Shown here in pieces: positions 33,552 through 63,846 of a stretch of 64,000 bases of DNA. The position numbers and the translations under genes are program-made. The stretch is taken from NCBI GenBank assembly GCA_012729095.1, contig JAAYDU010000061.1:1-64000 (forward strand), written 5' to 3'. Each line of letters opens with the position of its first letter. Position 1 is the first letter of the stretch. The notes under the pieces are model-generated. The model did not search any database. It saw only the letters and a program-made list of their open reading frames with translations, and was not told where the DNA came from. The DNA comes from Methanobacteriota archaeon. Its GTDB lineage: Archaea; Thermoplasmatota; Thermoplasmata; Methanomassiliicoccales; UBA472.

Positions 33552-33938
33552 TAGGCGATCGTAGGTCAGGGCAAGGCGGTTCTAAGGGCTATCCAGATGG
33601 GACCAACCTATTTCATTCGTGCTTCATTCCACCAAGCTCAGGGGCTCACCTGCAGGAGGTCGTTACATCGCAAGTTCATGAACGCTCCTTGACCATGCGG
33701 AAGGCGGTCAACAAGCGTCACGCTTCTATCGCGGAGATGCTGAGTAAAGGAGCGTGCAGGGCCTTTCCGGACGGCATGCTCTAAAGGCAGGGTTTCCTGT
33801 CACAGACCACAGGTACGCCAATGAACTAGTGATCGTTACATGCGGGGACTTTGCTCCGCCTTCATGATATTTATCTTTGGCTTATTATGGATGTAAGGCG
33901 TTTAAACACCATTAACAATAGCTCATGACATTACCATG

Positions 33939-33957
33939 TGGATGTATAATCCATCCA
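33939..33957. promoter_or_regulatory. Putative operator copy 1: TGGATG-TATAATC-CATCCA
   Basis: Read directly; same 6-7-6 inverted repeat as at 33970, 53461 and 62119. Confidence 0.65.
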
Positions 33958-33969
33958 ATGAAAACGGTA

Positions 33970-33988
33970 TGGATGTCACATCCATCCA
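33970..33988. promoter_or_regulatory. Putative operator copy 2: TGGATG-TCACATC-CATCCA, about 8 nt upstream of TATA-like TTTATTA (33997-34003)
   Basis: Read directly; centre 31 nt from copy 1 (about three helical turns). Confidence 0.65.
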
Positions 33989-34052
33989 TCAAAGAGTTTA
34001 TTACTCTCGATTGAAATTTGGACGCAGAAAACTTCTTTGGAGGAAAATAGAA

Positions 34053-34688
34053 ATGGCAAATATGGACGCATTGATTGAGATTGTCGTTAAGGGAAGGATC
34101 AAGGAGTCGAAGGGAGCAACCCAGGCCCTCCTCGATGCCGGAGTCACCGCAAGGGAGATCATCTTTGATGGGCTGAGCAAGGCCATGGAGATCGTCGGTG
34201 AGAAGTACGAGAAGAAGGAGTACTTCCTGCCCCAGGTTCTTCTGTCCGCCCAGACCCTGTACCAGGGATTGAACCTGGCCCTGCCGAAGTTGGACACCGC
34301 TTCCGCCGATGCTGCCGGAAAGATAGTCATCTGCGTGGTCGAGGGAGATGTCCACGACATCGGCAAGAACATCTGCAAGGCCCTGCTGACCGGCGCTGGC
34401 AACACCATGTTTGACATGGGTCGCGACGTGCCTCTGAAGGACATCATACAGAAGGCCAAGGACGAGAACGTCAACATCATCGCCACCTCTACCCTCATGA
34501 CCCCCACCCTGGCGGGCATGAAGGAGATCGAGAAGATGCTGGCCGAGGGCGGCCTGAAGGGCAAGATAAAGACCATGGTCGGCGGCGGTGCCACCTCCCA
34601 GGACTTTGCCAAGAGCATCGGTGCGGATGGCTGGGGCTACGACGCGAACGAGGCCGTTCGTGTTGCCGTCCAGCTCCTGAAACACTAA
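34053..34688 (+). CDS. Corrinoid (B12-binding) methyl-carrier protein of the MtaC/MtmC/MtbC/MttC superfamily
   Basis: VVEGDVHDIGKNICKALLTGAGNTMFDMGRDVP (DxHxxG cobalamin motif), MVGGGATSQDFAKSIGADGWGYDANEAV; SD GGAGG upstream of ATG 34053; ORF-track start at 33936 is too early. Confidence 0.92.
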   Translation: MANMDALIEIVVKGRIKESKGATQALLDAGVTAREIIFDGLSKAMEIVGEKYEKKEYFLPQVLLSAQTLYQGLNLALPKLDTASADAAGKIVICVVEGDVHDIGKNICKALLTGAGNTMFDMGRDVPLKDIIQKAKDENVNIIATSTLMTPTLAGMKEIEKMLAEGGLKGKIKTMVGGGATSQDFAKSIGADGWGYDANEAVRVAVQLLKH

Positions 34689-34720: not shown

Positions 34721-34790
34721 TAATCTTATAATAATAAGATAGCTATAATAAAAATAACAGTGCAAAATTTTATACTTGCAGGTCATCATA

Positions 34791-35615
34791 ATGTACAGGT
34801 TGAAAATGTCCTCCAATGAGATCGCTGTAGAAAAGGAGATCGCGCATATCAAGCGAAAGGTGGAGGAGATGGGGCTCGAACTTCGGTACATAAGCGCCAT
34901 GTTGCAGAGCTCTCAGGGGCCGGATTTCCGACGACCTGAGATGTTCGACATGCTGAGGGACGAGGCGCGGCAGAAGGCGGAAGGCCGTCTGGACGCGGGA
35001 ATGGCCAAGAGATGCGAGATGCGTCCGGAATGCCGCCAAAGGTTCATGGAGCTCCTGGACGAGAACCTCCGGCTTCTGGACCGCCCGCGGATCGCCGAGG
35101 AGGACATTGAGCGTCAATCGGAAAAGCTGGCATCCCTGCGCTCGATGGCCGCCTCGGGAGGGTGCGAGGAGTGCTTCCGCGAGGTTGGCTCGATCTTCCA
35201 AGACCAGACCGAGCTGATGCATCAGCTGCAGCTTTACCGCAGCAGGGACGAGGTCCGGGACAGCATAGAGGTGATGCCGGAAGCGACGGTGGTGCGCGAC
35301 ATACTGGAGCCGCTTTCCAACCCCCAGAGGATGTTGATAATGAAGGCGCTTAGCCGTTCCCAAAGGTCGTTCACCGAACTTTCCTCGATAACCAACCTTC
35401 GCGGGGGGAACCTGCTGTTCCACCTGCAGAGGCTGACAGGTACCGGCATGGTGTTCCAGAGAGGAGGGCATGGCGAATACGCCCTCACTCAAAAGGGCCA
35501 GAGGTCTCTGGAGGCGGTGAGCGACCTTTACATCAGAACGTCCGTCGCGGAGCAGCAGGGAACGGCCGTCATCAACGATCACGAACGGGCGCCCATGTCC
35601 GCCAGGACCGAATGA
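34791..35615 (+). CDS. ArsR-like winged-helix regulator with Cys-containing N-terminal region
   Basis: LEPLSNPQRMLIMKALSRSQRSFTELSSITNLRGGNLLFHLQRLTGTGMVFQRGGHGEYALTQKG. Confidence 0.75.
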   Translation: MYRLKMSSNEIAVEKEIAHIKRKVEEMGLELRYISAMLQSSQGPDFRRPEMFDMLRDEARQKAEGRLDAGMAKRCEMRPECRQRFMELLDENLRLLDRPRIAEEDIERQSEKLASLRSMAASGGCEECFREVGSIFQDQTELMHQLQLYRSRDEVRDSIEVMPEATVVRDILEPLSNPQRMLIMKALSRSQRSFTELSSITNLRGGNLLFHLQRLTGTGMVFQRGGHGEYALTQKGQRSLEAVSDLYIRTSVAEQQGTAVINDHERAPMSARTE

Positions 35616-53436: not shown

Positions 53437-53460
53437 GGAAAATTAAGCTATTGTTTAACA

Positions 53461-53479
53461 TGGATGGATTGTCCATCCA
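53461..53479. promoter_or_regulatory. Putative operator copy 3: TGGATG-GATTGTC-CATCCA, about 9 nt upstream of TATA-like TTATATT (53489-53495)
   Basis: Same 6-7-6 inverted repeat as the corrinoid-protein and atwA promoter regions; same distance to TATA as copy 2. Confidence 0.65.
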
Positions 53480-53592
53480 TCATCAAGCTTATATTCTAAC
53501 TTAACATTCACAAGTCCGCAAGGGGTACCGGTTTTCTCATGAATGATGCAAATCTGATCGAGGAGACCGAGTAAATGAACAGGAGGTAAAAA

Positions 53593-54924
53593 ATGGCAAA
53601 GTACAAGGACAAGGTGGACTTGTATGACGACAGAGGCAAACTGATCGAGAAAGACGTGTCTCTGGACGCTATAAGTCCTTTAAACAACGCCGCCATTAAG
53701 CGAACCATATCTCTGACGAAGAGAACTATCGCCGTCAACCTTGAGGGTATTGAGAAGGGTCTCAAGACCGGAGCGGTTGGAGGATTGAACGTTCCCGGCA
53801 GGGTCTTGGACATCGCTGTAGTGGCGAACGCTGACAAGCTGGCCAAGAAGATCAAGGACACTCTGAAGGTCGCCAAGGACGATGACACTGAGATCAAGAT
53901 GATGGCGGGCGGAAAGAGAATGGCCGTGACCTGCCCCAGTAGCAGGATAGACACTGGAGCCGAGTACACCACGGGATACACCGCGGTGGCCGCCGCTGTC
54001 ACCGAGGCAATCATCGAACAGTTCGATGTGAACATGTTCGAGGCCTCGATGGTCAAGGCAGCTGTCTGGGGAAGGTACCCGCAGACCATCAACATGGTCG
54101 GGTCCAACCTGAAGAGCATCCTCGACGTCCCGCAGCTGAACGAAGGTACCGGCTACGCCCTCAGGAACATCATGGCTAACCACATAGTCATGCTGACCGG
54201 CAGGAACGCCATGAACGCCGCCGCGCTGTCTTCTATATATGAGACCGTGGCCGCCTACGAGATGGGCGATGCGATCGGCAACTTCGAGAGGCAGCACCTG
54301 CTGTCCCTGGCCTATCAGGGACTGAACGCCAACAACCTGGTCTACAGCTGGGTAAAGGAGAACGGCAAGACCGGCACCGTCGGTGATGTCGTAGCTTCCA
54401 TGGTTGGCCGCGCTCTTGATGACAAGGTCATCAAGAAGGGAAAGAAGTTCCCCTCCGGATTCGTTGAGTACACAACCAACGACTTCCCGCTGTGGAACGC
54501 CTATGTTTCCGCTGGTCTGCTGGCTGCGATCTGCGTGAACATCGGTGCCGCTAGGGCTGCGCAGGGTATCCCATCCACCATTCTGTACTACAACGACCTG
54601 GTGGAGCACGAGACCAGCCTGCCCGGAACTGACTACGGTAGGGCCATGGGTACTTCCGTCGGTATGTCCTTCTTCAGCCACTCTATCTATGGTGGCGGCG
54701 GTCCTGGACTGTTCCACGGAAACCACGTGGTTACCAGGCACGCCAAGGGAACCGTCATACCCGTTATCGCCGCTGGATGCTCTCTCGATGCTGGTACTCA
54801 GTACTTCAGCGCAGAGAACACCTCTCTGATGATGGGGGAAGTGTTCGGTGAGATCGACGTGTTCAAGGGCCCGTTGAAGATGGTCGGCAAGGAGGCCAAG
54901 AAGCTGAAGGAGCAGGGTGCTTAA
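53593..54924 (+). CDS. mcrB: Methyl-coenzyme M reductase subunit beta
   Basis: 443 aa; [64 protein letters not shown]; strong SD AGGAGG. Confidence 0.98.
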
Positions 54925-54926
54925 AC

Positions 54927-55349
54927 ATGAGTCAGCCTACCTCCGAGGAGGTACCCCTTCCTGAGATCATGGTATTTCCGGAGCGTATGCTCTTGGCCGA
55001 TACCACCGAAACGCTGCTGAACAAGCTGCATGAGGTGAAGAACGTCAAGAGGATCACCGTGCAGGGCGAGGACCTGCCGGCGATCATGAAGGCAGGCCCC
55101 GGTACCGGCGGTCCGGTGGATCATCCAGAACGCCGCGTCATCAAGGTCGCAGGCAAAGATATGGAACTGAAGGTATTGGTCGGTAGGATACTCGTAGAGA
55201 TATCCGACATGGACTTCGTACCTCAGGCCATGAAGGATATTAAAGAGGTATGCGAAAGCGTGTTCCCCTTTAATTTCACTCTAGAGGTAGGCAGATACTC
55301 AAAGTTCAAGCCAACTGTATCCGACTACAAAAAAGGATTGGTGAAATAA
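54927..55349 (+). CDS. mcrD: Methyl-coenzyme M reductase operon protein D
   Basis: 140 aa; [41 protein letters not shown]; located between mcrB and mcrG. Confidence 0.95.
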
Positions 55350-55350
55350 C

Positions 55351-56133
55351 ATGGCTAAATCAAAGTATAAGGCACAATTCTATCCTGGCAACACCCTGCC
55401 CGCCAAGAACCGGAGACGCTTCTTGGACCCCAGCGAGAAGCTGGAGAAACTCCGCGACGTTCCGATGGACGACGTGGTCAAGATCCTGGGTCACAGGACC
55501 CCTGGTTCCGACTACGCTACCATCCACCCGCCGCTGGAGGAGGGTAACGAGCCCGACTGCCCTATCAGGGCGCTGGTCGAGCCCATCGAGGGTGCGAAGA
55601 AGGGAGACAGAATCAGGTACGTTCAGTTCACTGACTCCGTGTACTATGCCCCTATCATTCCGTATGTTAGAGCTCAGATGTACATGTGGAGATTCAGGGG
55701 AATCGATACCGGTACCCTGTCTGGAAGGCAGATCATCGAGATGAGGGAGAGGGACGTCGAAAAGGTGGCCAAGGAACTCATCGACAACGAGACCTTCGAT
55801 ACCGCTAGGACCGGTATCAGGGGAGCGACCGTGCACGGCCACGCCGTTAGGCTGGACGAGAACGGGCTGATGTTCGATGCCTGGCAGAGGTTCCGGTGGA
55901 ACGCGAAGAAGGGCGAGGTCGAGTATGTGAAGGACCAGGTCGGTGTCCCGTTGGACAAGCCTGTTCCGGTCGGAAAGCCCATGCCCGAGAAGTGGTTGAA
56001 GGACCACACTACCATGTTCCGCGCCGACGGCGTAGACATGAGGGACGACGAGGAGGTCATGAGGCAGAACCTCAGAATACACACCCTCAGGACCAAGTGT
56101 GGCTTCCAATCCTTCAATGTTAAGGAGGACTAA
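55351..56133 (+). CDS. mcrG: Methyl-coenzyme M reductase subunit gamma
   Basis: 260 aa; [60 protein letters not shown]. Confidence 0.98.
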
Positions 56134-56135
56134 AT

Positions 56136-57800
56136 ATGGCGAAGGAAAAGGAAAAGATGTTCATCGCCGCCATGCACAAGAAGTTCAAGGAGGAACCCAC
56201 CGAGGTCCGCTCCAAGCACTATTCCTACGGAGGCTGGAGACAGTCGAAGAGGAAGCGGGAGTGGGTTGAGCAGTCCAACAAGATTGCCAAGGCCCGTGGA
56301 ATCCCCATGATGAACCAGGATGTTGGTGTGGCTCTCGGCCAGCGTGTCTTGATGCCCTACCAGTTGTCCCACACGGACATCTATGGCGAGGCCGATGACC
56401 TTCACTGGGTCAACAACGCTGCTATGCAGCAGTGCTGGGACGACATACGCAGGACCGTCATCGTCGGTCTGGATGTGGCCCACAACGTTATCGAGAAGAG
56501 GCTGTCAAAGGAGGTCACCCCTGAGACCATCAACCGCTACCTGGAGGCTGTTAACCACACCATGCCGGGCGGCGCAGTGGTACAGGAGCACATGGCCGAA
56601 CTTTGCCCTGAACTCGTGAAGGACTCCTATGTCAAGGTGTTCTCTGGTGACGACGAGCTTATCGACGAGATCGACAAGTGCTACGTCATCGACATAAACA
56701 AGGAGTTCCCCGCGAAGCAGGCCAAGGAGCTGAAGGCCGCTGTCGGCAAGAAGCTGTGGCAGGTCGTTCGTGTCCCGTCCATCGTTGGACGTGTGTGCGA
56801 TGGTGGTACCATATCCAGGCACTCTGCTATGCAGATATCCATGGCCTTCATCACCGCGTACAGACTGGCTGCCGGTGAAGCGGCTATCGCCGACTTCGCC
56901 TTCGCCGCCAAGCACGCCGCGATGGTCGAGATGGGTACCATGATGCCCGCCAGGAGGGCTAGGGGTAACAACGAGCCCGGTGGAATTCCGTTCGGTGTAC
57001 TGGCCGACTGCGTCCAGAGCACCAGGACCCACCCTGACGACCCCTGCAGGTCTTCCCTGGAGGCTGTCGCTCTCGGTTCCGTCATCTACGACCAGATATA
57101 CCTCGGATCGTACATGTCCGGCGGTGTCGGGTTCACTCAGTACGCAACCGCCTCCTACACCGACAACATTCTGGAGGACTACACCTACTGGGCGTACGAC
57201 CTGCTGAAGGACAAGTACGGCGGTCTCTGCGCAAGCGAGCCGAGCACCGAGCTGATGGAGAAGCTGGGTTCCGAGATCAACTCGTACTCCCTCGAGATGT
57301 ACGAGCGCTACCCGGCCGCCATGGAAGCCCACTTCGGTGGGTCCCAGAGGGCCTTCGTGGCCGCTGCCGCCACTGGTATCGGCTGTGCATTTGCCACCGG
57401 CAACGCCAACTTCGGTGTGAACGGATGGTATCTGTCTCAGTACCAGCACAGGGAGAGGCTCGGAAGGCTCGGGTTCTACGGATACGATCTGCAGGACATG
57501 TGCGGTGCATCCAACTCGTTCTCTTACAGGAGCGACGAGGGTCTGCCCCACGAGCTGAGAGGACCGAACTTCCCGAACTACGCCATGAACGTGGGCCACC
57601 TCGGTGGTTACTGCGGTATATCCATGGCCCCGCACGCTGCTCGCGGCGACGCGTTCGTGTGCAACCCGCTGGTCAAGATCGCCTTCTCGGACAAGAACCT
57701 GCCCTTCGACTTCGGCAACATCACCCGGGACTTCGGGCGCGGTTGCCTCAGGGAGTTCATGCCTGTGGGTGAGAGGACCGCGATCATACCCGCTAAGTGA
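56136..57800 (+). CDS. mcrA: Methyl-coenzyme M reductase subunit alpha
   Basis: 554 aa; [106 protein letters not shown]. Confidence 0.99.
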
Positions 57801-59316: not shown

Positions 59317-61152
59317 GTGAGAATTATGCAAAACATTAGGGCCTCAGCCGAGGCTTCCCCCGGAACGGATCTGAAGAGCGACAGCCCCTGCCAGAACCTG
59401 CTGCGCGCGGGCGATCCACAGGTGTTCGCCGTATTGATGTCGTCGGAGGACGTCGTATCCGCCAGTGCGGCCCTCAAGGGATTGTTGGCCGAGAGGGAGG
59501 CCGCTCTCCACTCGTGGGATTGTCACGTTCATCCCCTGGAACGGTCCAATGCCCTTCACTGCATCCGGGTGATGCACAACTTCCTTTCGCCTAGGAACGA
59601 AAGGGTGAGCGGCATCTCGGTGATAACGCATCTCTTCAACGTTTCGCACGGCTCGGACGAGGGCGTTCACCCGGCCTTCGTCAGTGACGTGCTGCACATA
59701 CTGAGGGGTACCACCGGCGAACCGGTCCTGGACCTTCAGGAGGCCCCTGACTTCGCCACGCTCGACGGGCATGAAGGGGGCATCGTGCGCTCCGATTACC
59801 TTGACGGGATGGCCGAGGCTATGGAGGGCTGGACGCGCAGATACCCCAGCGGGCTGTTGCCGAACGTCATTGCCAGGCGCAAGGAGAACCGTGCCCGGAT
59901 ATTGGAATACCTGAGCGCCGACCTGGACGATTGGAACGATTATGCCTGGCAGATGAGAAACGTCATGCTGAGCCAGGAGGTCATAGGCGACCTTATCGAG
60001 CTGACAGCGGAGGAACGCGAATCCATATCGCTTTGCATGGAGCGCCGCATCCCCTTCGGCATCACTCCCTATTACCTCTCCTTGATGGACCGCGAACCCT
60101 CTCGGAAATGGGACCACGCGGTGCGCGCCCAGGTCATCCCGCCCCTGAGCTATGTGAAAGAGGTGTTGAGGTCTCGTTCGGACCCGTCCTCCAGCCTGGA
60201 CTTCATGATGGAAGGGCAGACCTCCCCGGTGGACCTGGTGACCAGGCGGTATCCCGTGATAGCGATATTCAAGCCTTACAACACCTGCGCCCAGATATGC
60301 GTCTACTGTCAGAGGAACTGGGAGATCGAAGGCGTTCTCTCCGAGGATGCCATGGCCCCCCCGGAAAAGATAGATGCGGCCCTGGATTGGTTCGAGGGGC
60401 ATCCCGCGGTGACCGAGGTCCTGGTGACCGGGGGGGACCCCGCCATACTCGCCAACGGACAACTGCGCTCGATGCTCGGTCGGCTGGGCAGCATGCCGCA
60501 CATCAAAAGGATGCGCTTCGGCACGAGGGTGCCTGTTGTCATGCCTATGAGGATCGATGAAGGGTTCCTGGGGCTGCTGGCTGAACTGCATGACCCCCCC
60601 AGGCGGGAGTTCGCGCTGGTCACCCATTTCGAGCATCCCTACGAGGTGACCCCCGAATCGGCCGCGGCGATCAGATCGATGCGCTCACTGGGCATTCCCG
60701 CCTATAATCAGCAGGTGTTCACCATGGAGAACTGCCGGCGCTTCGAGACCGTGGCGCTCCGTTCCGCCCTGAAGGAGATCGGGGTGGACCCATATTACAC
60801 GTTCAACGCCAAAGGCAAGGAGGAGACGTCCGAGTACCGGGTTCCCATATCCCGGCTGCTGCAGGAACGCAAGGAGGAGGCCAGGCTTCTTCCCGGGTTG
60901 AGCAGGACCGATGAACCGGTGTTCAACATTCCCGCGCTGGGCAAGAACCATCTGCGGGCCTGGCAGCATCACGACCTGATCTCCCTTACTCCCAGAGGGG
61001 AAAGGGTGTACGAGTTCCATCCGTGGGAGAAGAACATCGCCATGGCACCTACCTACGTGCACCGGGACGTGCCCATAGCGGACTTCCTGGACAATTTGGC
61101 GGAAAGAGGCGAGGACCCTGAACTGTACCGCAGCATCTGGTACTACTTCTAG
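59317..61152 (+). CDS. KamA family (lysine 2,3-aminomutase-like) radical SAM protein with long N-terminal extension
   Basis: CAQICVYCQRNW (CxxxCxxC), EVLVTGGDPAILANGQLRSMLGRLGSMPHIKRMRFGTRVPVVMPMRI, IPAYNQQVFTMEN. Confidence 0.88.
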   Translation: MRIMQNIRASAEASPGTDLKSDSPCQNLLRAGDPQVFAVLMSSEDVVSASAALKGLLAEREAALHSWDCHVHPLERSNALHCIRVMHNFLSPRNERVSGISVITHLFNVSHGSDEGVHPAFVSDVLHILRGTTGEPVLDLQEAPDFATLDGHEGGIVRSDYLDGMAEAMEGWTRRYPSGLLPNVIARRKENRARILEYLSADLDDWNDYAWQMRNVMLSQEVIGDLIELTAEERESISLCMERRIPFGITPYYLSLMDREPSRKWDHAVRAQVIPPLSYVKEVLRSRSDPSSSLDFMMEGQTSPVDLVTRRYPVIAIFKPYNTCAQICVYCQRNWEIEGVLSEDAMAPPEKIDAALDWFEGHPAVTEVLVTGGDPAILANGQLRSMLGRLGSMPHIKRMRFGTRVPVVMPMRIDEGFLGLLAELHDPPRREFALVTHFEHPYEVTPESAAAIRSMRSLGIPAYNQQVFTMENCRRFETVALRSALKEIGVDPYYTFNAKGKEETSEYRVPISRLLQERKEEARLLPGLSRTDEPVFNIPALGKNHLRAWQHHDLISLTPRGERVYEFHPWEKNIAMAPTYVHRDVPIADFLDNLAERGEDPELYRSIWYYF

Positions 61153-62111
61153 TACCGCTCGGCCAGCTTGGCGAGCAGGTCCGAATACGTACCTTTCCCC
61201 AAATCCATGGTCGCCATGCAGGCTATGGCCTCTCGCTTGCGCATGATCGGGACGGCAATGATTGGCAATCCCCGATAGGGGCCGCTGGTCGACAACCGGC
61301 GTACTATCGAACCCCTCTTCATGGATTCCTCCAGCATCGGTCCGGTGTAATGGGTGTCAATGACCTCCCCGTCCTCGCATCGAACACCGGGGCGGTTCCT
61401 GCTGCGCATGGTGACCGGCAATCGTCCCAGCAGCTCGTGTATGGCCAGGGCCAAGCATCTCAGTTCATCCGCCTCAGTATCGTGGCTAAGTATGCTCGTT
61501 CCCTCGCTCCAGCATCTCCTGGCCAAATTTCCCAAAGAAAGGGCGGCTGTGACGGCTCCCTTCTCCGCCGCGTCGTAGTTGAACGCTGAACCGATTATGA
61601 TCACGTCCCCATCGTCCATCCGGAAGTAGTTCTTCAGGGGCGCTACCAGGGATTGGTCTGGATACTCCTCGTCCCCTGGAAACACTATGCGGGATTCTTT
61701 GACGACCAAGGTGGTGGCGCCTACCGCCCCGGCCCTGACCGCCTCGTCCCTCTGCTCGCAGCCCATGTTGACCCTGTCGGATGCGCATTTTACCAGCACC
61801 GCGCAGTTGAACTTGCCTAAGGTTAGATCGGAAAGGTCGATCTGCCTCACCTCCACGCCGGAGTTGTCCAACTTCCGTTTTCCGCGGTCGGTTATCGTGA
61901 TGCCCAAGCGGGAGCTTTCGATGCACCCCTCCCTCATCATCTTGTCCAGGATCGTCCTGGTGCTTCCCTCCCCTATCTGCAGTACGCCGGCCAAGGCCTT
62001 CCTGCCTATAGGTCCTTCCTTGGCCACCACCTGATGCGCTTTCCATATATGATAGGCGTTGAACTTTGGCGTTGGACCCCCTGCAAAGTAGGAATTGAAG
62101 GACATTGGCAT
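61149..62111 (-). CDS. Winged-helix (DUF4443-like) protein with C-terminal DUF2111-like domain, candidate transcriptional regulator
   Basis: N-terminal HTH (HQVVAKEGPIGRKALAGVLQIGEGSTRTILDKMMREGCIESSRLGITITDRGKRKL), NrpR/sensor-like middle region, C-terminal SGPYRGLPIIAVPIMRKREAIACMATMDLGKGTYSDLLAKL; true start 62111 or 62105. Confidence 0.72.
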   Translation of the reverse strand: MPMSFNSYFAGGPTPKFNAYHIWKAHQVVAKEGPIGRKALAGVLQIGEGSTRTILDKMMREGCIESSRLGITITDRGKRKLDNSGVEVRQIDLSDLTLGKFNCAVLVKCASDRVNMGCEQRDEAVRAGAVGATTLVVKESRIVFPGDEEYPDQSLVAPLKNYFRMDDGDVIIIGSAFNYDAAEKGAVTAALSLGNLARRCWSEGTSILSHDTEADELRCLALAIHELLGRLPVTMRSRNRPGVRCEDGEVIDTHYTGPMLEESMKRGSIVRRLSTSGPYRGLPIIAVPIMRKREAIACMATMDLGKGTYSDLLAKLAERY

Positions 62112-62118
62112 TATGGGA

Positions 62119-62137
62119 TGGATATATAATCCATCCA
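62119..62137. promoter_or_regulatory. Putative operator copy 4: TGGATA-TATAATC-CATCCA in the divergent regulator/atwA intergenic region
   Basis: 18 of 19 nt identical to copy 1 (33939-33957); sits inside the larger inverted repeat GGATGGAT-ATATA-ATCCATCC (62116-62136). Confidence 0.65.
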
Positions 62138-62223
62138 TAAATATGTTACATCATCCAATTGTTAAAGCCAGGAGATTTGAACGGGGTAAGTATTATATCT
62201 GCAATAATCGTTGGCAAACAGGT

Positions 62224-63846
62224 ATGCCCGAGGGTTCAGAGGTTCTAATAATATTGGACAAGGTCTCCAAGAGCTTCAATGGAAACCAAGTTCTGAAGGA
62301 CATAACGACTACCGTCCGCACCGGCGAGGTCCTCGGGCTTATCGGCAAGAGCGGTAGCGGAAAGTCCGTCCTTATCAACGCCATGCGCGGGAACGAGGAG
62401 TACAGGCCTGACTCCGGACGCATCATCTATCGCGTGAACCATTGCGAATCATGCGGATGGATCGACCTGCCCGCAGCTGGCGTAAAATGCCCAATGTGCG
62501 GAAAGGCGACCAAGATCATCGAGGTCGATTTCTGGGCCTTGAACGAAAGAGACCCCGTGCGCATGGCCATGCGCGGCCGCATCGCCATCATGCTGCAGAG
62601 GACCTTCGCCCTGTACGGTGACCTCAGCGTCATAGAGAACGTGTTCGAGGCCATGAAGGAGAAGTCCGACGAGAAGAAAGTGGAGAAGGCCATTAAATTG
62701 CTGGAGATGGTCAATATGACCCATCGTACCATGCACATCGCTCGCGACCTCTCCGGAGGCGAGAAGCAGAGGACCGTGCTCGCCAGACAACTTGCCCGCA
62801 AACCTCTGCTGTTCCTGGCCGACGAACCAACTGGTACCCTGGACCCGGAGACAGCGGACATCGTGCACAAAGCGCTGATAAACGCGGTCAAGGACAGCGG
62901 CATGGCAATGGTGGTCACCTCGCACTGGCCAAAGGCCATAGAACTTCTTTCGGACCGGGCCATCTGGCTCGAGGAAGGGATGATCAAGGAGGAGGGAGAA
63001 CCGAGCGAGATCACCAAGGCCTTCGACGTCAAGTTCGTCAAGACCAAGGAGATGGAGGTCAAGGTCGGTCTGCCGGTCATCCGCGTGGATGGCGCAAAGA
63101 AATACTTCTATTCCATCGTCCGGGGCGTGGTCAAGGCCGTGGACGACGTAACATTGGAGGTCGGGGAAAAGGAGATATTCGGTCTGATCGGTCTAAGCGG
63201 GGCCGGGAAGACCACCCTGTCCCGCATGATATCCGGGATCACCCCTGCCACGCACGGCGAGGTGCTGGTGCGTATCGGGGACGACTGGGTGAACATGTCC
63301 GATCTGGGCGAGGAGGGCAGAGGCCGCGCCACCCAGTACATCGGCATTATGCATCAAGAGAACGCACTTTATCCGTTCAACACCGTCCTGCAGAACCTCA
63401 CGGTCTGCCTGGGCATGAAGCTGCCGCAGGAGCTCGCCAAGATGAAGGCCATTCAGGTGCTTCGCGGCGTGGGCTTCACGGCCAAGGAGGTAGAGCGCAT
63501 ACTTTACGCCTACCCGGACTCCCTCAGCGTGGGAGAGAAACAGCGCATAGCCTTGGCGCGCACCATGATCATCGAGCCCCGCTTCGTGGTCCTTGACGAA
63601 CCTACCGGCACAATGGACCCCATTACCCGTCAGGCGGTGGCCAAGTCCGTGCTGCACGCCCGCAAGGAACTGAACGAGACATTCCTCATAGTCAGTCACG
63701 ACATGGACTTCGTTCTAGCATGCTGCGACCGCGTCGCTCTGATGAGGGGCGGCAAGATGGTCGCCCTGGGGACCCCTCAGGAAGTGCTCAGGGACATGAC
63801 CCAGGAAGATCTGGAAGGCGACGAGTCTGAGGTCTGCGAGGTCTAA
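62224..63846 (+). CDS. atwA: Methyl-coenzyme M reductase system component A2 (tandem ABC ATPase)
   Basis: Two ABC domains (GKSGSGKS, LSGGEKQRTVLARQLARKPLLFLADEPTGTLDPET; GLSGAGKTT, LSVGEKQRIALARTMIIEPRFVVLDEPTGTMDP) with CESCGWIDLPAAGVKCPMCG zinc-finger-like insert. Confidence 0.92.
   Translation: MPEGSEVLIILDKVSKSFNGNQVLKDITTTVRTGEVLGLIGKSGSGKSVLINAMRGNEEYRPDSGRIIYRVNHCESCGWIDLPAAGVKCPMCGKATKIIEVDFWALNERDPVRMAMRGRIAIMLQRTFALYGDLSVIENVFEAMKEKSDEKKVEKAIKLLEMVNMTHRTMHIARDLSGGEKQRTVLARQLARKPLLFLADEPTGTLDPETADIVHKALINAVKDSGMAMVVTSHWPKAIELLSDRAIWLEEGMIKEEGEPSEITKAFDVKFVKTKEMEVKVGLPVIRVDGAKKYFYSIVRGVVKAVDDVTLEVGEKEIFGLIGLSGAGKTTLSRMISGITPATHGEVLVRIGDDWVNMSDLGEEGRGRATQYIGIMHQENALYPFNTVLQNLTVCLGMKLPQELAKMKAIQVLRGVGFTAKEVERILYAYPDSLSVGEKQRIALARTMIIEPRFVVLDEPTGTMDPITRQAVAKSVLHARKELNETFLIVSHDMDFVLACCDRVALMRGGKMVALGTPQEVLRDMTQEDLEGDESEVCEV

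Follow-up and report, generated by a model that had tools for sequence, protein, structure and literature searches.

A winged-helix protein with DUF4443 and DUF2111 domains as the probable reader of a 19-base palindrome at methyl-coenzyme M reductase and corrinoid promoters of Methanomassiliicoccales

A 320-aa protein combining a winged helix with the domains DUF4443 and DUF2111 very probably reads a 19-base palindrome (TGGATG-N7-CATCCA) located before the methyl-coenzyme M reductase operon (mcr), before methyl-carrier genes and before its own gene; binding was inferred, no binding data being available. The best model, which we consider likely, is a one-component factor which activates mcr and the corrinoid genes and represses itself. 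The motif, its positions, its conservation, its co-loss with the regulator and its linkage to the protein family were observed; binding, dimerisation, activation as opposed to repression, and the ligand were inferred. The relevant features of the window (the whole stretch of DNA analysed, 64,000 nucleotides from a member of Methanomassiliicoccales) were as follows:

33939..33957, plus strand: operator copy 1, distal site of a double operator, TGGATGTATAATCCATCCA (exact 19-mer)
33970..33988, plus strand: operator copy 2, proximal site, TGGATGTCACATCCATCCA (exact 19-mer)
33997..34003, plus strand: TATA box TTTATTA of the corrinoid-protein gene, starting 8 bp past copy 2
34053..34688, plus strand: gene for a corrinoid (B12-binding) methyl-carrier protein, 211 aa, putative target (Pfam)
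53461..53479, plus strand: operator copy 3 in the mcr promoter, TGGATGGATTGTCCATCCA (exact 19-mer)
53488..53495, plus strand: mcr TATA box CTTATATT, starting 8 bp past copy 3
53593..57800, plus strand: mcr operon, mcrB to mcrA, putative target (mcrB TIGR03257, mcrA TIGR03256)
61149..62111, minus strand: regulator gene, 320 aa (ORF listing and Pfam)
about residues 33-78 of the regulator: PH0730-like winged helix (Pfam)
residues 98-193 of the regulator: DUF4443, after the winged helix (Pfam)
residues 224-303 of the regulator: DUF2111 (Pfam)
62119..62137, minus strand: operator copy 4, in the promoter of the regulator gene itself, TGGATGGATTATATATCCA (11 of 12 consensus letters)
62138..62143, minus strand: TATA-like TATTTA of the regulator, immediately 5' of copy 4 (sequence)
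62224..63846, plus strand: atwA, methyl-CoM reductase component A2 (NCBIfam TIGR03269, 754 bits)

The ORF of the regulator extended over 61149-62138 on the minus strand, with 62111 as the best start and 62105 as the alternative; the end at 62137 given in the initial annotation was one base out of frame. The gene was otherwise confirmed as real by its ORF and by three Pfam domains above their cut-offs, in the proposed arrangement of an N-terminal winged helix followed by DUF4443 and DUF2111: PH0730-like_N (PF22167; E=9.5e-12, 45.3 bits vs. a cut-off of 30.2), DUF4443 (PF14544; E=2.8e-28, 98.3 bits vs. 27) and DUF2111 (PF09884; E=5e-27, 94.2 bits vs. 27). CggR_N scored 29.6 bits, slightly below its cut-off of 30, and no SorC effector domain was reported by Pfam, so that the protein did not qualify as a member of the CggR/SorC family. 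The TrmB domain (PF01978) was absent from the regulator's Pfam list and reached at best 15.5 bits among its orthologues (cut-off 25.6). AlphaFold2 applied to the single sequence gave a mean pLDDT of 30. Residues 31-190 were matched by phmmer to PDB entry 2P8T (E=1.6e-13), by sequence the only relative with a solved structure. The divergence from atwA claimed at the outset was upheld by the TIGR03269 match (754 bits), and the divergent pair was kept in the examined loci of all six families (f1-f6) of the order. About 85 bp separate atwA from operator copy 4, too far from the atwA TATA box for the geometry of the targets, and direct control of atwA through this copy is for this reason uncertain.

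Across the whole source genome, the exact 19-mer occurred three times, always in the promoters listed above, while the reversed control gave no match. The alternative register ATGGAT-N5-ATCCAT had four exact matches (three in these promoters; reversed control 0), the fourth of which (G000:C23:38138) was the anticodon arm of tRNA-Ser(GCT) and not a promoter site. This register held within the genus only, and TGGATG-N7-CATCCA was preferred because it was common to all families. Operator copies 1 and 2 were 31 bp apart (three helical turns), a spacing seen again in six sister genomes, and the protein encoded downstream matched B12-binding (E=8.1e-21) and B12-binding_2 (E=6.3e-18). Copy 4 sat within a perfect 8+8 palindrome (GGATGGAT-N5-ATCCATCC, 62116-62136), a few nucleotides ahead of the ATG at 62111 and directly 3' of the TATA-like TATTTA, both as initially described.

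Two further observations were made around these promoters. A second element, ATTGTTAA/TTAACAAT, was conserved at many target promoters (53449-53460 and 33910-33921 in the window), where it preceded the operator by about 5-30 bp, often with CTGGC further upstream. Directly after the corrinoid-protein gene there was an ArsR-type HTH gene (HTH_5, DUF7347; window positions 34776-35615), which may encode a local methyltransferase regulator.

The distance between the site and the TATA box was constrained in 38 of 48 mcr and corrinoid target promoters, the TATA box starting past the site by 8 bp in 27 promoters, by 9 bp in 10 and by 7 bp in one. As far as sequence geometry alone can tell, the same operator was located upstream of the TATA box at the targets and downstream at the regulator's own gene, that is, on opposite sides. 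The autorepression layout proposed in the initial annotation stood at the regulator's own promoter. An operator in the sense of a repressor site does not fit the mcr and corrinoid promoters, where the site borders BRE/TATA on the upstream flank, which is the position of archaeal activators. TrmBL1 activates from upstream of the promoter and represses from downstream (PMC4706686). Following this precedent, and because of the position of the site with respect to the TATA box, activation of the targets together with self-repression was proposed: the protein would be an activator at the mcr and methyltransferase promoters and an autorepressor of its own gene, an inference made without expression data in which activation is deduced from geometry only.

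The same regulator and operator might instead work by repression everywhere, the site beside the BRE hindering TFB/TBP at mcr and corrinoid promoters until a ligand released the protein in the presence of methyl substrates. The self-site has indeed the layout of a repressor site, and the target sites abut the BRE; however, in 38 of 48 targets the site ended 7-9 bp short of the TATA box, leaving the BRE free and overlapping neither BRE, TATA box nor start site, and TrmBL1, the precedent, activates from its upstream sites (PMC4706686). General repression was judged unlikely, and activation of the targets with self-repression was retained.

The order-wide sample consisted of 148 genomes of Methanomassiliicoccales from the six families, and 145 of them carried an orthologue or relative of the regulator (a few of these matches were to a short paralogue only). 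The exact operator was strongly over-represented with respect to the reversed control: the regulator's own family gave about 67 matches vs. 0, families f2-f5 about 50 vs. 0 and family f6 about 113 vs. 13. The possibility that the repeats are chance or non-regulatory structure (tRNA-like arms, repetitive DNA), true for the tRNA-Ser(GCT) arm matched by the N5 form, was already refuted for the promoter sites by the enrichment over reversed controls, the fixed promoter geometry and the conservation across families, and has practically no chance of being correct.

The self-site was sought at 56 non-identical regulator loci from the six families (up to 2 mismatches, positions -27 to +4 of the start). 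Of the 56 orthologous loci, 46 had it at the start of the regulator gene, with a TATA-like sequence directly 5' in most of them, and it beat dinucleotide shuffles (p<=0.05) in 47 of 56. The expectation that orthologues would always neighbour the motif was fulfilled at those 46 starts and not in the remaining 10; the self-site was absent from second long-regulator copies in some f1/f4 genomes (L059, L041) and missing in several f6 lineages.

The mcr operator was kept in families f1-f5 and in one f6 genus, and was absent from most of the f6 mcr promoters examined (L083-L102). Most f6 genomes retained the regulator and its self-site despite this loss, which argues for a rewired regulon in f6. The remaining sites of the order were mostly located before corrinoid genes, UroD-type methyltransferase genes and a few other promoters, with single cases before a CbiX-like gene and before a NifH/NifD-like fusion resembling F430-biosynthesis proteins. 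Two f5 genomes (L129 3771, L244 3026) also had an operator in the gap separating a DUF169 gene from an ORF that diverges from it, which may extend the regulon.

A survey of DUF2111 in a sample of the class Thermoplasmata plus 14 control genomes found the domain in 7 of 7 Methanomassiliicoccales and in none of the 53 other Thermoplasmata sampled; two controls, M. jannaschii and M. acetivorans, had it as well and the other 12 did not. The distribution of DUF2111 was tied to methanogens.

One f5 genus combined genomes with and without the full-length regulator. It was present in G019, G021 and G024; G020 and G022, 99% complete and with mcr present, had only the short paralogue in profile searches. 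The mcr promoters of G020 and G022 (AAAAATACATCCAACTA) aligned with those of their congeners (G019, GGTTGGATTATCCATCCAG; G024, GGTTGGTGTATCCAACCAG) around CATGTTTATATG, with the left half of the operator gone and the right half altered. The mcr operator was lost together with the full-length regulator in these two genomes, in one event within one genus, and no convincing operator was found elsewhere in them. Two candidates there were discarded: one exact match in G020 (TGGATGACATTGTCATCCA) lacked promoter hallmarks, and a near match on a 1.5-kb contig (G020:C2:101, L211) had the context of a corrinoid promoter like those of genus g1 and was probably binning contamination. The second conserved element was apparently lost in G020 and G022 along with the mcr operator.

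The short paralogue consisted of HTH and DUF4443 only (194 aa; contig C48 of the source genome, L002 1495-2079) and was encoded directly downstream of a gene resembling S-adenosylmethionine synthetase; related short proteins recurred in the order. Reading of the operator by this paralogue, and not by the DUF2111-bearing protein, is conceivable, since its recognition helix is near-identical (GEGSMRTI vs. GEGSTRTI) and in other classes the operator occurs together with short proteins of the HTH-DUF4443 type. It is nevertheless very improbable: G020 and G022 retained the paralogue and lost the operator, on which ground it was rejected as the binder, no exact 19-mer was found near the paralogue in the source genome, and the self-site belongs to the long gene. 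The paralogue was also present in the congeners and alone does not maintain the motif.

When about 85,000 genomes were scanned without bias for operator plus TATA box, 46 stretches were returned. Of these, 15 were from Methanomassiliicoccales, and wherever the gene that followed could be read it was a corrinoid or mcr (mcrB) gene. Another 3, from Methanofastidiosia, preceded corrinoid genes, 2 from Methanomethylicota preceded BtuF-like genes, and the rest were mostly within ORFs. Sites in Methanofastidiosia were also located before genes for UroD-corrinoid fusion methyltransferases, CbiM, CbiQ/CbiO and BtuF-like proteins. DUF2111 was absent from the Methanofastidiosia and Methanomethylicota that had the operator; a short relative of roughly 205 aa, with winged helix and DUF4443, was found in these lineages. 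In all 7 Methanofastidiosia with a detected copy, its gene shared a contig with an operator, at a distance of 0.6-6 kb (in G203 it ended an operator-headed gene series, opposite CbiQ/CbiO and an ECF transporter component); it was not detected in two more Methanofastidiosia with sites and was not near the operator in Methanomethylicota. Genomes keeping the motif without the gene family, which would have refuted the initial proposal, exist as regards DUF2111 but not as regards the HTH-DUF4443 family. As the operator recurred with HTH-DUF4443 relatives in the absence of DUF2111, DNA specificity was, on the simplest reading, assigned to the HTH-DUF4443 part, which is probably responsible for recognition, no binding data being available.

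One genome from the Methanofastidiosia search, G229, had a short HTH-DUF4443 protein and a stand-alone 128-aa ORF (G229:C94:14847-15167) matching the DUF2111 part of the profile only, possibly an unfused ancestor of the long regulator. G223 and G231, genomes of about 3 Mb from the class of Methanofastidiosia, had exact operators lying close together in clusters (e.g. G223:C4:70265, 76139, 76368).

Tentatively, and at slightly less than even chances, HTH-DUF4443 can be seen as a conserved regulator of corrinoid- and H2-dependent methylotrophic methanogenesis, using the same 19-mer in the deep archaeal lineages Methanomassiliicoccales, Methanofastidiosia and Methanomethylicota; cobalt/corrinoid or methyl supply would have been sensed first, DUF2111 and mcr being gained in Methanomassiliicoccales.

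The link between regulator and targets had been drawn from synteny, which by itself cannot exclude that an unrelated factor binds the 19-mer, the site in the gap serving atwA and the regulator gene being a bystander. The second conserved element upstream of many sites also speaks for this possibility, and another factor probably does act at the target promoters because of it. Against a bystander role, the site hugged the start of the regulator, and not the atwA promoter, across families with differing intergenic distances, the operator was co-lost with the regulator, and HTH-DUF4443 was linked to the operator in the different gene context of Methanofastidiosia; little credence is given to an unrelated factor. 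The synteny-based link with the long regulator is now supported by the self-site conserved in six families with its TATA box directly 5' (46 of 56 loci), by the loss of the mcr operator in two near-complete genomes without the full-length gene, by the shorter HTH-DUF4443 member close to the operator in 7 of 7 genomes of another class in which it was detected, and by the lack of DUF2111 in every sampled non-methanogen of the class.

The regulator is predicted to be a one-component transcription factor that probably acts as a homodimer and would bind TGGATG-N7-CATCCA through its N-terminal winged helix. Positioned 7-9 bp upstream of BRE/TATA of mcrBDGA and of the corrinoid/methyltransferase operons, it would most likely recruit the transcription machinery and activate; the corrinoid operon would have two dimers on one DNA face, spaced by 31 bp (three helical turns). 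At its own gene, directly downstream of the TATA box and over the presumed start site, it would block transcription and hence repress itself. The signal sensed by DUF4443, and in the order also by DUF2111, would probably be linked to the supply of corrinoids or methyl groups, the ligand having been guessed from the regulon. Against this model, most f6 genomes lack the mcr operator, several f6 lineages lack the self-site, the co-loss was a single event, the site near atwA does not match the geometry of the targets, and the relative in Methanomethylicota is not close to an operator.

Methyl-coenzyme M reductase is the enzyme making biological methane, Methanomassiliicoccales live in human and ruminant guts, and to our knowledge the transcriptional control of this enzyme is poorly understood. 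With a protein and a defined 19-bp operator now in hand, the question of mcr control becomes directly testable. If the model is true, Methanomassiliicoccales would have in this regulator a first candidate for a master switch of methanogenesis, DUF4443 and DUF2111 would receive a first function, and mcr would be linked with corrinoid methyltransferases and cobalt/B12 uptake in three lineages of H2-dependent methylotrophic methanogens.

Literature searches found no described mcr regulator in Methanomassiliicoccales, and neither DUF2111 nor DUF4443 in use as a name. PH0730 of Pyrococcus horikoshii (PDB 2P8T), for which we know of no function, shares the N-terminal winged helix and DUF4443 with the regulator but lacks DUF2111; no operator copies were found in most of the genomes sampled of the class holding Methanofastidiosia, a sample probably including Thermococci. 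The 16-kb mcr/atwA marker cluster of Methanomassiliicoccales was described by Borrel et al. 2014 (PMC4153887), and the portion of that paper available to us discussed no regulator for it.

HdrR of Methanosarcina barkeri is a winged-helix protein encoded beside a core methanogenesis operon, which it activates via a palindromic promoter element (PMC11218639). It resembles the regulator in its winged helix, its methanogenesis neighbours and its palindromic element (homology was not tested), but controls hdrBCA, and its paper names no DUF (PMC11218639). TFB-RF1 of Pyrococcus furiosus, according to the accessible part of its description, is an activator recruiting TFB at promoters with a weak BRE (PMC5937170); to that extent its mechanism is the one proposed for the regulator's targets, with a different regulon and homology untested. 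TrmBL1 of P. furiosus, an archaeal one-component regulator, recognises an interrupted palindrome, TGM (TATCAC-N5-GTGATA), whose position relative to the promoter decides between activation and repression (PMC4706686); the regulator is proposed to act likewise. It differs in its sugar regulon and effector domains, the regulator having no TrmB domain above the cut-off, and the position effect inferred here would be TrmBL1-like in an unrelated family.
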